DNA of 64,000 nt from assembly GCA_937138495.1 (NCBI GenBank), contig CAKZPE010000006.1, forward strand, positions 104,624-168,623, read 5' to 3'. The number at the start of each line of letters is the position of its first letter. Positions within the stretch are counted from its first letter, which is position 1. A model generated the notes under the pieces. It was not told where the DNA came from, did no database searches, and saw only the letters and a list, made by a program, of their open reading frames with translations. Origin of the DNA: an uncultured Oceanospirillaceae bacterium. Lineage in GTDB: Bacteria; Pseudomonadota; Gammaproteobacteria; Pseudomonadales; Balneatricaceae. Position numbers and translations under genes: made by a program. Shown one piece after another: positions 25,162 to 31,008 of the stretch.

Positions 25162-28100
25162 ATGACACAGAAAAACCGCCTCCAGTCCGGAGGCCGCATC
25201 GACCGTTCCAAGTCCTTAACCTTTTCCTACAATGGTCAGGAATTCAAAGGTTTCCAGGGCGATACACTGGCATCTGCGATGCTGGCGAACGGCATCGACG
25301 TAATTGGTCGTAGTTTTAAATACAGCCGCCCGCGCGGTATCGTAGCCGCCGGTGCTGAAGAGCCGAATGCGGTAATGCAGCTGGGCGCCACTGAAGCGAC
25401 TCAGGTACCTAACGTACGGGCAACTCAGCAAGAGCTGTTCCACGGTCTGGTGAGCAAGGCGACTAACGGCTGGCCAAACGTAGACACCGACATCATGAGC
25501 CTGCTGGGCAAAGTCGGTGGCAAGATGATGCCTCCTGGCTTCTACTACAAGACCTTCATGTACCCGCAGTCTATGTGGGATACCTATGAAAGCATGATCC
25601 GTAAGGCTGCCGGTTTAGGCCGTTCGCCGCTGGAAACAGATCCGGATACATACGACAAAGTTAACCAGCACTGCGATATCCTGGTTGTCGGCGCTGGCCC
25701 TGCGGGTCTGGCAGCTGCGCAAACCGCTGCACGCAGTGGCGCCCGTGTCATCATCGCTGATGAGCAGAGCGAATTCGGTGGCAGCCTGCTGAGCAGCAAA
25801 GAAATGCTGAACGGCAAGCCAGCAGCTGACTGGGTTGCAGAAGTCACTGCTGAACTGGAAGCGGCTGATAACGTAATGGTTCTGCCACGTTCTACTGTGA
25901 ACGGCTACCACGATCAGAACTTCCTGACGATCCACGAACGCCGCACCGATCACATTGCTGATCTGGCGCCAGCCGGTCAGGTGCGTCAGCGTCTGCACCG
26001 TGTCCGTGCCAAGTGGGTTGTTCTGGCGACTGGCGCACACGAACGTCCGCTGGTATTCGCGAACAACGATGTACCGGGTTGCATGGTTGCAAACGCAGTT
26101 TCTACCTACATCAACCGTTACGGTGTAGTACCGGGTAACGAACTGGTACTGATGACCACCAACGATAACGCCTATCAGGCGGCGATCGACTGGGCTGAAG
26201 CAGGCCGTAAAGTGGTTGCGATTGTTGATACCCGTCAGTCGCCTGCCGGTGACCGTATTGATGCTGCCCGTAAGTTGGGCATCAACATCATTACCGGTTC
26301 TGCAGTGATTGAAGTTCAGGGCAGCAAGCGTGTGTCCGGCGTCAGCGTTGCACCTATCAGCAGCGACGGCAGCACTATTTCCGGTTCTGTGCAGCGTCTG
26401 AGTGCAGACACTGTTGCAAGCTCCGGTGGCTGGAGCCCGGTTATTCACCTGTCCTGCCACACGGGCAGCCGTCCGGTCTGGAACGAAGACGTTGTTGGCT
26501 TCCTGCCTGGCCCGACTGTACAGAAGCAACTGATTGCCGGTGCAATTAATGGTAGCTACAGCACAGCGAAAGCGCTGGGTGAAGGTGTTGAAGCCGCGAA
26601 CAGCGCGATTGCTTCCCTGAATCTGGATGCGGTAGCTGTAGAAGTACCTGCGACTGAAGACGTGGCTGAAGGCCCTGTTCAGACGCTGTTCCACATCCCG
26701 CACACCAAGCCGACAGCCGCTGCGCCTAAGCAGTTCGTTGATTACCAGAACGACGTAACAGCGTCCGGTATCGAGCTGGCGTGCCGTGAAGGTTACGAGT
26801 CTATCGAGCACGTGAAGCGTTACACCGCGATGGGCTTCGGTACTGACCAGGGTAAGCTGGGTAATATCAACGGTATGGCGATTGCCGCGAAGACTCTGAA
26901 CAAGAGCATTCCGGAAACCGGTACGACCATTTTCCGTCCTAACTACACGCCGGTTACTTTCGGTGCGATGGTTGGCCGTGACTGTGGTGAGCTGTTTGAT
27001 CCAGAGCGTTACACCGCGATGCACAAGTGGCATCTGGAAAACGGCGCTAAGTTTGAGGACGTAGGCCAGTGGAAACGTCCATGGTACTTCCCGAAAGCGG
27101 GTGAGACCATGCAGGAAGCGCTGAACCGTGAGTGTGTAGCCACCCGTGAAAGCGTCGGTATTCTGGATGCATCCACTCTGGGTAAAATTGATATTCAGGG
27201 TAAAGATGCCCGTGAATTCCTGGGCCGTGTATACACCAACCCATGGGCCAAGTTGCCGGTCGGTAAGTGCCGTTACGGTCTGATGTGTGGTGAAGACGGT
27301 ATGGTCTTCGATGACGGTGTAACGACTTGTCTGGGTGAGAACCACTTCCTGATGACGACCACTTCCGGTGGCGCGGCACGGGTATACGAGTGGCTGGAAC
27401 TGTGGCACCAGACTGAATGGCCTGAGCTGGAAGTTTACTTCAACACAGTGACCGATCACTGGGCGACCATGACAATTTCCGGTCCGAACAGCCGTAAGCT
27501 GCTGGAAGAAGTCTGCACCGATATCGACCTGTCCAACGAAGCATTTGCCTTCATGGACTGGAAAGCCGGTACTGTTGCAGGCGTACCTGCACGGGTATTC
27601 CGGATTTCCTTCACCGGTGAACTGTCTTACGAGATTAACGTTCAGGCGAACTATGGTTTGCAGGTTTGGGAAAAGCTGTTCGAACACGGTGAGAAGTACA
27701 ACCTGACACCTTACGGTACTGAAACCATGCACGTGCTGCGTGCTGAGAAAGGTTTCATCATCGCCGGTCAGGATACTGACGGTTCCGTTCACCCGCACGA
27801 CCTGGGTATGAGCTGGTGTGTGTCTGACAAGAAGCCGTTCAGCTATATCGGTAAGCGCGGTATGAAGCGTGAAGACTGTGTCCGTGAAAACCGTAAGCAA
27901 CTGGTCGGTCTGAAGACTAAAGATCCGATGGTTGTGATTCCGGAAGGTTCGCAGGGTGTATTCGATAAGAATGCGCCAATCCCGATGCCAATGGTTGGTC
28001 ACGTTACATCCAGCTATTACAGTGCCGTTCTGGGTCACAGCATTGCCATGGGCTTTGTGAAAGGTGGTCTGAACCGTATGGGCGAAACCGTTTACTATCC

Positions 28101-28182
28101 ACAGGCGGATGGTAGTTTTATTGAGGCTGAAATTTGCAGCCCGATCTTCCTTGATCCTAAAGGGGAGCGTCAGAATGTCTGA
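25162..28182 (+). CDS. soxA: Sarcosine oxidase alpha subunit
   Basis: The 1006-residue alpha subunit. The N-terminal part is a 2Fe-2S-ferredoxin-like fold (GFQGDTLASAMLANGIDV, then FKYSRPRGIVAAG). A dinucleotide-binding oxidoreductase domain follows (ILVVGAGPAGLAAAQTAARSG, with a second Rossmann segment near VLMTTNDNAYQAAIDWA). The C-terminal 380 residues form a GcvT-like THF-binding domain (ARVFRISFTGELSYEINV) that captures the one-carbon unit as methylene-THF. The start is moved from 25132 to the ATG at 25162, which has AGGAG 7 bases before it. The stop overlaps soxG by 8 bases. A spurious 807-residue ORF lies opposite. Confidence 0.95.
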   Translation: MTQKNRLQSGGRIDRSKSLTFSYNGQEFKGFQGDTLASAMLANGIDVIGRSFKYSRPRGIVAAGAEEPNAVMQLGATEATQVPNVRATQQELFHGLVSKATNGWPNVDTDIMSLLGKVGGKMMPPGFYYKTFMYPQSMWDTYESMIRKAAGLGRSPLETDPDTYDKVNQHCDILVVGAGPAGLAAAQTAARSGARVIIADEQSEFGGSLLSSKEMLNGKPAADWVAEVTAELEAADNVMVLPRSTVNGYHDQNFLTIHERRTDHIADLAPAGQVRQRLHRVRAKWVVLATGAHERPLVFANNDVPGCMVANAVSTYINRYGVVPGNELVLMTTNDNAYQAAIDWAEAGRKVVAIVDTRQSPAGDRIDAARKLGINIITGSAVIEVQGSKRVSGVSVAPISSDGSTISGSVQRLSADTVASSGGWSPVIHLSCHTGSRPVWNEDVVGFLPGPTVQKQLIAGAINGSYSTAKALGEGVEAANSAIASLNLDAVAVEVPATEDVAEGPVQTLFHIPHTKPTAAAPKQFVDYQNDVTASGIELACREGYESIEHVKRYTAMGFGTDQGKLGNINGMAIAAKTLNKSIPETGTTIFRPNYTPVTFGAMVGRDCGELFDPERYTAMHKWHLENGAKFEDVGQWKRPWYFPKAGETMQEALNRECVATRESVGILDASTLGKIDIQGKDAREFLGRVYTNPWAKLPVGKCRYGLMCGEDGMVFDDGVTTCLGENHFLMTTTSGGAARVYEWLELWHQTEWPELEVYFNTVTDHWATMTISGPNSRKLLEEVCTDIDLSNEAFAFMDWKAGTVAGVPARVFRISFTGELSYEINVQANYGLQVWEKLFEHGEKYNLTPYGTETMHVLRAEKGFIIAGQDTDGSVHPHDLGMSWCVSDKKPFSYIGKRGMKREDCVRENRKQLVGLKTKDPMVVIPEGSQGVFDKNAPIPMPMVGHVTSSYYSAVLGHSIAMGFVKGGLNRMGETVYYPQADGSFIEAEICSPIFLDPKGERQNV

Positions 28183-28819
28183 TAACGAAGTATTTGCAGC
28201 GGTTATGAATCAGCTGCCGGATGCCAGCATCCCGGGTTACTCGCCGCTACATCACGCGGATCTGGAAACACTGGCTAAGCAGGGACCACAGCAGGGCGGT
28301 GTACACCTGCGTGAACACAAGCTGTTAGGTCATCTGGTATTACGTTGCAACCCGGAGAACCCGGAGCATCTGGCAGGCGCTGAGCGTGTGCTGGGCGTTG
28401 CACTGCCTCTGAAGCCAATGTCTTCTGTGACTGAAGGTAACGTATCTGTACTGTGGACCTCACCGGATGAGTGGGTAATCATGGTTCCGGGTCTGGAAGC
28501 GTTTGATTACGAAACCAAATTCCGTGCGGAAATGTCCGGTCACTACTCGCTGGTTAACGTCAGCGGCGGCCAGACACTGGTTGAAGTATCCGGCGCTAAC
28601 GTTGTGGAGATGCTGAAGAAATCTTCACCACTGGATTTCGATCTGAGCGTATTCCCGGTCGGTAAGGTTGCCGGTACTGTGTTTGCTAAAGCAGGTGCTG
28701 TGATCCGTCGTACCGGTGAAGACCGTTTCGAGCTGATTATTCGCCGTAGCTTTGCTGACTATCTGTGGCTGTGGCTGCAGGACGCCAGCCGCGAGTACGG
28801 ACTGGTGATTGAAGCGTAA
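28175..28819 (+). CDS. soxG: Sarcosine oxidase gamma subunit
   Basis: The gamma subunit, 214 residues from the ATG at 28175 (GGGGAG upstream); the track start at 28109 lies inside soxA. It belongs to the GcvT-like fold: LRCNPENPEHLAGAERVLGVALP, LWTSPDEWVIM, and the closing RRSFADYLWLWLQDASREYG. It helps close the THF-side cavity of the complex. The 8-base overlap with soxA implies coupled translation. Its last codons and terminator reappear as a degraded copy about 160-200 bases downstream (see separate entry). Formyl-THF hydrolase or folD genes often found after soxG are absent here. Confidence 0.93.
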   Translation: MSDNEVFAAVMNQLPDASIPGYSPLHHADLETLAKQGPQQGGVHLREHKLLGHLVLRCNPENPEHLAGAERVLGVALPLKPMSSVTEGNVSVLWTSPDEWVIMVPGLEAFDYETKFRAEMSGHYSLVNVSGGQTLVEVSGANVVEMLKKSSPLDFDLSVFPVGKVAGTVFAKAGAVIRRTGEDRFELIIRRSFADYLWLWLQDASREYGLVIEA

Positions 28820-28845
28820 TACTCTTCAGTTTCGCTGCTAAAGAA

Positions 28846-28887
28846 ATGCCGGGCTGCTTATTTTGATATAAGTGCCCGGCATTTTTG
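28846..28887 (+). terminator. Terminator of the sox operon
   Basis: ATGCCGGGC and GCCCGGCAT form a perfect 9-bp stem with a 19-base loop, followed by TTTTTG. A second, related terminator lies 200 bases downstream. Confidence 0.88.
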
Positions 28888-28893
28888 TTTGTG

Positions 28894-29034
28894 GCGGATT
28901 ATCCGCCGTCGCTTTGCACTTTTTAACAGAGCTTTTCAGCAGAGCTTTTCAGCAGAGCTTTGCCTGTGGCTGTGATTGCAAGACGCTGGCCGCGAGTACG
29001 GACAGGTCATATTAAAAAGAGTATCGAAGCGTAA
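28894..29034 (+). pseudogene. Decayed duplicate of the soxG 3' end
   Basis: Two blocks match the end of soxG. GCGGATTATCCGCCGTCGCT and the next four bases (28894-28917) match 28732-28755 at 21 of 24 positions. Bases 28964-29007 match 28763-28806 at 38 of 44 positions, preserving the codons for LWL-LQDA-REYG but with one Trp codon turned to TGA. GAAGCGTAA, the end of soxG, recurs at 29026-29034 after a short insertion. Between the blocks sits a triplicated 13-base repeat. The following terminator (29059) is also a copy. It is too short and broken to be functional. It is either a local tandem duplication or the remnant of a larger lost sox copy. Confidence 0.85.
28927..28961 (+). repeat. 13-base triplicated repeat inside the soxG remnant
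   Basis: CAGAGCTTTTCAG occurs twice perfectly (28927-28939, 28940-28952) and then as a truncated third copy CAGAGCTTT. It probably arose by replication slippage inside the duplicated, unselected sequence. Confidence 0.9.
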
Positions 29035-29058
29035 CAGGCTTTAGTTGCTGTTAAATAA

Positions 29059-29097
29059 ATGCCGGACTCATGATTACTGATGAGCCCGGCATTTTTG
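29059..29097 (+). terminator. Second, duplicated terminator
   Basis: ATGCCGG-ACTCAT and ATGAG-CCCGGCAT form a long stem with one internal mismatch, followed by TTTTTGTG. The outer ATGCCGG/CCGGCATTTTTG is shared with the sox terminator at 28846, so it belongs to the same duplication. Confidence 0.85.
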
Positions 29098-29359
29098 TGT
29101 GTGATACCCGTCAGGTCCGCGACTAAGGTATGAATACCGGGCTTTTGCTCCTCAATCTGAGATCAAAGGGATGTATGTGTGCTTGATAACGCTTTTGTCT
29201 CTGGGGTAGCGTTATTCCGGGCTGCCAGAAACGGTGATTAACAACCGTGGCTTATAGCGTGTCAGACGTTTCATTCATTTTCTGAATTGCGTTGGATCAT
29301 TGATGAGTGTGAAGCCCGCCACATAATAAACCTTCGCGAATAAAGGGGTCAGACTAAGA

Positions 29360-30961
29360 ATGTATAGTCATTTAGCAGGTGGAATTGACAGGGTGCTGCG
29401 GATGCTGGGGGCTAAAACCCTGAATGCTCAGTTTATGTTGTCCTATGCGTTAATTTTTTTATTGGCAGCAACCGCTGCTGTTTCTCTGTACCTGAGTATG
29501 GCAATTAATCCTGAAACGATTAATGATGCCGGCCGGCAGCGTATGCTGAGCCAGCGCATTGCAAAAGAAGCGATGCTGGTCGCCGCCGGAGCTGAACAGC
29601 AGGCCGCGCTGGCAACCACGATTCAGTTATTTGAAAGTTCTCACCGCACGATTCTGGACGGGGATAAAGCCCGTGGTATGAATCCTATTTCTGACCCGGC
29701 CATCGTTGCGCAGATGCAACACGTTGAAGGCTTGTGGAAAAGTTATAAAGCAGTCATCAATCAACATGTGGCAAATCCTACAGATCAGACACTGGTGCAG
29801 ATAAAGCAACAGTCGCCGGTGGTACTGAAAGAAATGAATAAAGCGGTGGGCATGATGACCACCGCAGCGAATGAAACGGTTAAAACTCAGTTACTGATCG
29901 CCTTTGTCTGCATCATCGTAATTCTGGTGTTGGTGGTGCTTGGCCGTCAGTTTGGTCTGACTATGCTGATGCATAATATTGAGCGTTTGCGTAAACGGAT
30001 GTCCGAAGTGGGGAAAGGGGATTTCTCACACCGTTTTAATGTTGACCATGTGGATAACGAAGTCGGCCAGCTGTTTAACTCTTATAACGAGATGCTGGAG
30101 CACGCCAGTGAGTTGCTGGATGTGGTGCAGCGGGTATCGGCGAATACCGAAAATCATATGGGTGAAATGATCCGGCTGACGAATGCGGCGGATGAAGGTG
30201 TGGCCCGTCAGTATGAAGATATCGAGCTGGTTGCGACTGCGATGACCGAAATGGCGGCCACGGTGCAGGAAGTCGCCAGCAATACCAATGAAGCGGAAAA
30301 AGCCGCCAGTACAACCGGTGAGCAGGCCAAACATGGCGGCGATGTCGTTAGTCAGGCGGATGCGCAGGTTCAGCAGATGCTGCAGAGTATTCAGCGCACC
30401 TCTGAACAGATTCAGCAACTGAAAGACGAAACCATTGAGGTGGGTAAAGTCACCTCAGTTATCGATGACATTGCTGAACAGACTAACTTACTGGCGCTGA
30501 ATGCGGCGATTGAGGCAGCCCGTGCCGGCGATCAGGGCCGGGGTTTTGCGGTTGTGGCGGATGAAGTCCGTACGCTGGCACAGCGTACTCAGGAGTCCAC
30601 TACGCAGATCCAGAACATTGTGGGTGAGCTGCAGCGAATGGCTGAACAGTCGGTAACCACGATGGAAGAGAACAACCAGTTGGCTCAGCGCAGCAGCGAA
30701 CTGTCGGTTGCTGCAGCGGATTCCCTGCGGGAGATTATTTCGTCTACCGATACGATTTCATCCATGAACGTGATGATTTCCAGCGCCACAGATCAGCAGA
30801 GCAGTGTGGCAAATGACATTGATCAGCGGGTGGTAAATATTACCAACGTTGCCGCGGAAACTAAGAACGAAACCCAGATGGTGGTGACGGCGATTCAGGA
30901 AGTGCGGGAAAATCTGCAGGAACTGAATCATCTGACGCAGCGGTTCAAACTGCGTAACTGA
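29360..30961 (+). CDS. Methyl-accepting chemotaxis protein, PilJ-type sensor
   Basis: A 533-residue chemoreceptor. TM1 is about residues 27-48, the periplasmic sensor about 49-170, and TM2 ([18 protein letters not shown]) about 175-195. The sensor starts with [19 protein letters not shown], the hallmark of the PilJ/type-IV-pilus-chemoreceptor N-terminal domain, also related to nitrate-sensing NarX-like domains. A HAMP region follows, then a long coiled coil with the signalling tip [36 protein letters not shown]. No C-terminal NWETF-like pentapeptide tether is seen. AAAGGGG precedes the ATG. Ligand unknown; swimming versus twitching output cannot be decided from one protein. Confidence 0.9.
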
Positions 30962-30982
30962 CCCTTACTTGCTGTTATAGTG

Positions 30983-31008
30983 AAAGCCGGACTCTGCTCC
31001 GGCTTTTT
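30983..31008 (+). terminator. Terminator after the PilJ-type chemoreceptor
   Basis: AAAGCCGGA and TCCGGCTTT form a 9-bp stem with a 6-base loop, continuing into TTTTTGC. Confidence 0.9.

Follow-up and report, generated by a model that had tools for sequence, protein, structure and literature searches.

Downstream of its sarcosine oxidase operon, the window (the whole 64-kb stretch of DNA analyzed here) contains a degraded copy of the soxG tail together with the operon terminator (28897-29097). With a probability of roughly two in three, we interpret this element as one unit of a recombining array of gene tails and terminators, generated by a recurrent process at the ends of highly expressed genes. 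The soxG tail copy is a member of a class and not a single accident, and it represents the version of the E. coli tyrT-type class that occurs at a protein-coding gene. What resembles a pseudogene-like scrap becomes an example of insert-bearing gene-tail/terminator arrays located behind tRNA, rRNA, and protein genes.

The operon glyA-soxB-soxD-soxA-soxG runs to position 28819 and is followed by a hairpin terminator, the tail copy, and a chemoreceptor gene at 29360 (Table 1). The match of soxG to NCBIfam TIGR01375 (E 9e-41) falls slightly under the family cut-off, whereas soxB, soxD, and soxA are above theirs. A preliminary description, made from the sequence, had recognized a degraded tandem copy composed of two blocks, the end GAAGCGTAA, and a second ATGCCGG...CCGGCATTTTTG terminator, and had noted that one Trp codon of the copy is now TGA. 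All of these parts are present in both units, and the altered codon is the second Trp codon of the copied LWLW motif (28973-28975). Local alignment of the copy with the soxG tail and terminator gives a score of 118, whereas 1,000 dinucleotide shuffles average 18 and never exceed 29; for the tail by itself, the score is 66 (at most 30 in shuffles). The registers reported by the repeat finder are 31 nt at 81% and 47 nt at 85% identity, and a scan of the whole window identified no other local noncoding repeat pair of this kind. The tail copies are not protein coding. Each of the two units ends in a GC-rich hairpin followed by a T tract. Both hairpins are predicted to be much more stable than shuffled sequences (Table 1), and both are missed by a simple terminator consensus scan because it limits loops to at most 8.

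Table 1. Features of the soxG tail and of its downstream copy (positions in the window).
Feature	Position	Strand	Remarks
soxG, sarcosine oxidase gamma subunit, last gene of glyA-soxBDAG	28175..28819	+	source of copied tail
Block A of soxG tail (GATTATTCGCCGTAGCTTTGC), functional copy	28735..28755	+	pairs with 28897-28917
Block B of soxG tail up to stop codon, functional copy	28763..28819	+	28763-28809 pairs with 28964-29010
Operon terminator (unit 0), GC-rich hairpin and T tract	28844..28887	+	fold -27.6 kcal/mol, z -6.9
Post-terminator flank (TTTGTGGCG), passage from unit 0 into copy	28888..28896	+	junction type common to all Aliamphritea copies
Copy of block A (GATTATCCGCCGTCGCTTTGC)	28897..28917	+	
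46-nt insert	28918..28963	+	replaces seven soxG bases, TGACTAT; splits copied tail
Copy of block B	28964..29010	+	85% identical; in-frame TGA for Trp
~14-bp insertion ahead of GAAGCGTAA	29011..29024	+	common to the distal copy of G006 and both copies of G017
Copied soxG end GAAGCGTAA	29026..29034	+	counterpart in soxG 28811-28819
Terminator of copy (unit 1)	29057..29097	+	hairpin intact; fold -20.6 kcal/mol, z -6.5

A 13-bp tandem repeat (AGAGCTTTTCAGC) lies at 28919-28961, within the 46-nt insert. The same repeat (consensus GAGCTTTTCAGTA) occurs at scattered, mostly intergenic sites in 9 of the 18 genomes of the genus, where a two-unit pattern yielded 23 matches and the reversed control none. 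Several of these sites are located between a stop codon and a terminator. The ATGCCGG..CCGGCATTTTT terminator was considered as the repeat itself and rejected, as it is a style shared by a few loci per genome. Further downstream, the four Aliamphritea genomes show strong conservation of a ~110-bp spacer ahead of the chemoreceptor gene (29128-29240), which has no match elsewhere among the 18 genus genomes and no Rfam match. Its interpretation as a riboswitch was rejected on the basis of this single locus and a fold no better than that of shuffled sequences (z -0.7).

We then evaluated the distribution of the copies across the GTDB genus. The soxG gene is present in 17 of the 18 genomes, and tail copies occur downstream of it in only four, all Aliamphritea: one each in G000 (the window's own genome) and G005, and two each in G006 and G017. 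None was found in the other 13 genomes with soxG. Three of the four Aliamphritea genomes are single contigs, thus assembly error is unlikely. Every copy has the same plan (tail block A, foreign insert, tail block B, stop codon, and terminator) and starts at the same internal point of soxG. In all six, the left junction consists of the terminator, TTTGTGG or a close variant, and block A, and the insert lies at the same point. As the left junction and insert point are common to all six copies, the array was probably founded once, before the species split.

The gene that follows the array encodes a chemoreceptor in all four Aliamphritea species. In the other Amphritea genomes for which the downstream side was read, a conserved gene that appears to be purU lies directly 3' of soxG. 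Elsewhere in the genome, purU was located in G000 and G005, with no match above the cut-off in G006 and G017. The array is thus located at a synteny break. Displacement of purU was rejected as the origin of the array: it marks the break and gives no cause. In the annotated part of the neighborhood, no integrase or recombinase gene was seen between or beside adjacent copies.

Sequence comparison of the units indicates that the copies are a recombining tandem array, varying in number, with coding blocks that resemble the soxG of the same genome and with swapped 3' UTR types. For example, the first copy in G006 retains the copy-type junction and middle, and its coding blocks share 98-100% identity with the soxG gene of that genome. 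Copies can be assigned to parent species in 24 ways; the correct assignment produces the closest match between copies and their own parents (p about 0.04), with G005 departing from the pattern. Two 3' UTR types (CAGGCTTTAGTTGCTG and TACTCTTCAGTTTCGCTG) adjoin soxG in one species and belong to a copy in a different one. Terminator loops are likewise swapped across species between the soxG-proximal place and a copy, and the distal terminators differ between species. In the copies, deviating cells are rarer in the terminator stem and T tract (2/144) than in the tail blocks (32/366; Fisher 0.0014, for cells that are not independent). Eight of the 11 stem pairs are unchanged in all 10 units; the stem barely varies and has no covariation.

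The insert, the varying copy number, and the recombination with soxG go beyond the preliminary description, as does the occurrence of the same plan at tRNA, 5S rRNA, and rpsA genes. Local noncoding repeats were scanned for in 1.42 Mb of G006 (about a quarter of the genome) and 0.38 Mb of the window's own genome (about a tenth). Six of the ten repeat clusters in G006 are gene-tail arrays, located at soxG, two tRNA-Phe loci, tRNA-Pro, a 5S rRNA end, and rpsA; the others comprise duplications of whole tRNAs, a pair of gene paralogues, and unclassified cases. The rpsA array (L222:13465-15174) comprises about ten tail and terminator units of 138-153 bp. The sample from the window's own genome has tail copies at two 5S ends, tRNA-Phe, and tRNA-Met, and its rpsA gene (L297) is followed by one to two tail and terminator units. 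The terminator type adjacent to rpsA differs between these genomes, and the type in the window's genome is that of the distal units in G006. In addition, Amphritea G007 has a tail copy at tRNA-Phe. The copies at tRNA, 5S, and rpsA loci all include block A, an insert, and block B, and usually a terminator as well. In the G006 sample, arrays are found at 3 of 7 tRNA clusters compared with 2 of ~1,188 ORFs (Fisher 1e-6). The identity of the array-bearing genes suggests that they are highly expressed. A separate observation from G006 is a row of ten alternating tRNA-Asp and tRNA-Val genes (L210:17343-18421; ~230 bp per pair).

Arrays of this type also occur outside the genus. A separate tail array is present at soxG in Marinobacterium rhizophilum, and the short insert there falls within the same part of the gene. 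Long known and little studied, the E. coli tyrT/tyrV repeats (rttR, tpr; Rfam RF00391, RtT) follow the plan of the sox copies, with an insert placed between blocks A and B of the gene tail. A single unannotated copy of the tRNA-Pro tail, carrying an RtT-type insert, lies downstream of E. coli proK (L272:600-900). The tRNA-Phe, tRNA-Pro, and E. coli tRNA-Tyr copies have the insert within the T-loop, and the tRNA-Met copy has it next to the anticodon. The first E. coli tyrT insert, when inverted, matches the Amphritea tRNA-Phe insert at 35 of 37 bases (score 57, compared with a maximum of 24 in shuffles). In a gammaproteobacterium outside the genus, tRNA-Ser tail copies (L269:1303-1750) carry inserts in the T-loop, and these include GGCCCGAAGGGCGAGGAGCG, a sequence also present in E. 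coli tyrT. The recurrence of the plan at tRNA, 5S rRNA, and rpsA genes and at E. coli tyrT/tyrV and proK argues that a repeatable process produces such arrays. We found no open-access paper on gene-tail arrays as a class; descriptions in subscription journals may exist.

We infer that in the ancestor of Aliamphritea a segment of ~160 bp, from inside soxG to just beyond the operon terminator, was duplicated in place, and that an insert then split the tail of the copy. Later homologous exchange (conversion, unequal crossing-over, or repeated re-duplication) would have altered the copy number, held the coding blocks of the copies close to the resident soxG, and shifted 3' UTR and terminator types between soxG-proximal and distal positions. 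A repeatable process at the ends of genes that, by their identity, are highly expressed may yield such arrays, and a link to high transcription is presumed here. Judging from the predicted hairpins, the copy would most likely act by adding termination in the interval that separates the sox operon from the chemoreceptor gene.

Other origins of the copy have to be weighed against such a recombining array. The preliminary description had proposed a past duplication ending at the operon terminator, either as a local tandem event or through deletion of a second sox operon. The local event is supported by the left junction and the copy-specific insert position that the four Aliamphritea species have in common. 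Deletion of a second operon could explain why the copy ends in a complete terminator. However, no near-identical second soxG is retained in any genome of the genus, no copy exceeds the tail in length, and comparison of the syntenic region in relatives revealed no full second soxG or operon at the locus. All copies begin at the same internal point of soxG, and tail-only arrays recur at many other genes. A remnant of a lost operon is highly improbable. Neutral debris, i.e., one chance 160-bp tandem duplication that is decaying, with the other tail arrays as unrelated accidents, fits the stop codon and indels in the copied tail and the short similarity GTTTnnnGCnG at the left junction; moreover, tandem duplication requires no special process. 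Against this, copy number and terminator types are still changing between species, the terminator stems are intact, and the arrays in the G006 sample are concentrated at tRNA clusters over ORFs, each with an insert at a fixed point. We consider neutral debris unlikely, although it is the most plausible of these alternatives.

Simple duplication does not explain why each array carries an insert at a fixed position. Serial site-specific insertion would do so: cassettes made of block B, terminator, block A, and insert would enter at the point between blocks A and B, restore the tail, and push the older tail downstream. The insert is present in all copies and never in the gene, and in tRNA copies it occupies the T-loop or the vicinity of the anticodon loop, regions of tRNA genes that serve as integrase sites. 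Insertion beside the gene would also fit G006 rpsA, where a new terminator type adjoins the gene and the type in common with the window's genome is at the distal end, as well as the inverted 37-bp insert segment common to the E. coli tyrT and Amphritea tRNA-Phe copies. On the other hand, no recombinase was seen beside the sox array, the units lack common ends across genes, a standard att crossover puts no insert between core and tail, and the sox distal terminators are not conserved between species. Such insertion seems to us improbable, more so than neutral debris. Extending the preferred reading, that of a recombining array, to Gammaproteobacteria in general, we tentatively suggest that an unnamed process might copy the 3' ends of highly transcribed genes and their terminators into insert-bearing tandem arrays, within which exchange later swaps tails and terminators, with E. 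coli tyrT/RtT as the one described case. If the class is general, it would explain the E. coli tyrT repeats, known for a long time, as an instance of it, reveal a route by which genes change terminators, and offer a well-defined target for testing whether local duplication is driven by heavy transcription.

The sox array shares features with several known systems. As in tandem intrinsic terminators, two consecutive hairpins with T tracts are located behind the operon, but each sox terminator carries a copied coding piece and is part of a recombining array. Integrative elements rebuild the 3' ends of genes, for example at att sites in tRNA genes or, in the case of phage 21 and e14, in icd. Gene tails are duplicated in direct orientation in these scars and at sox alike, whereas the sox copies lie side by side, several in a row, split by an insert, and with no element or recombinase between them. 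The closest parallel is RtT. The RF00391 covariance model finds the four E. coli units and, among seven loci scanned, matches only these; it has no match in window positions 28000-31000 at E up to 1, where the Rfam scan as a whole gave no match of note. RtT follows a tRNA gene and has a conserved 67-nt insert, whereas the sox copy follows soxG and combines an unrelated insert with a protein-gene tail and a T-tract terminator. In Salmonella Paratyphi A, rtT RNA is a 175-bp VNTR with a copy number that varies between close relatives (PMC2658671). Like RtT, the sox units are arranged in tandem downstream of a gene, are built from block A, an insert, and block B as far as the end of the gene, and vary in number among close relatives (1, 1, 2, and 2 in the four Aliamphritea).
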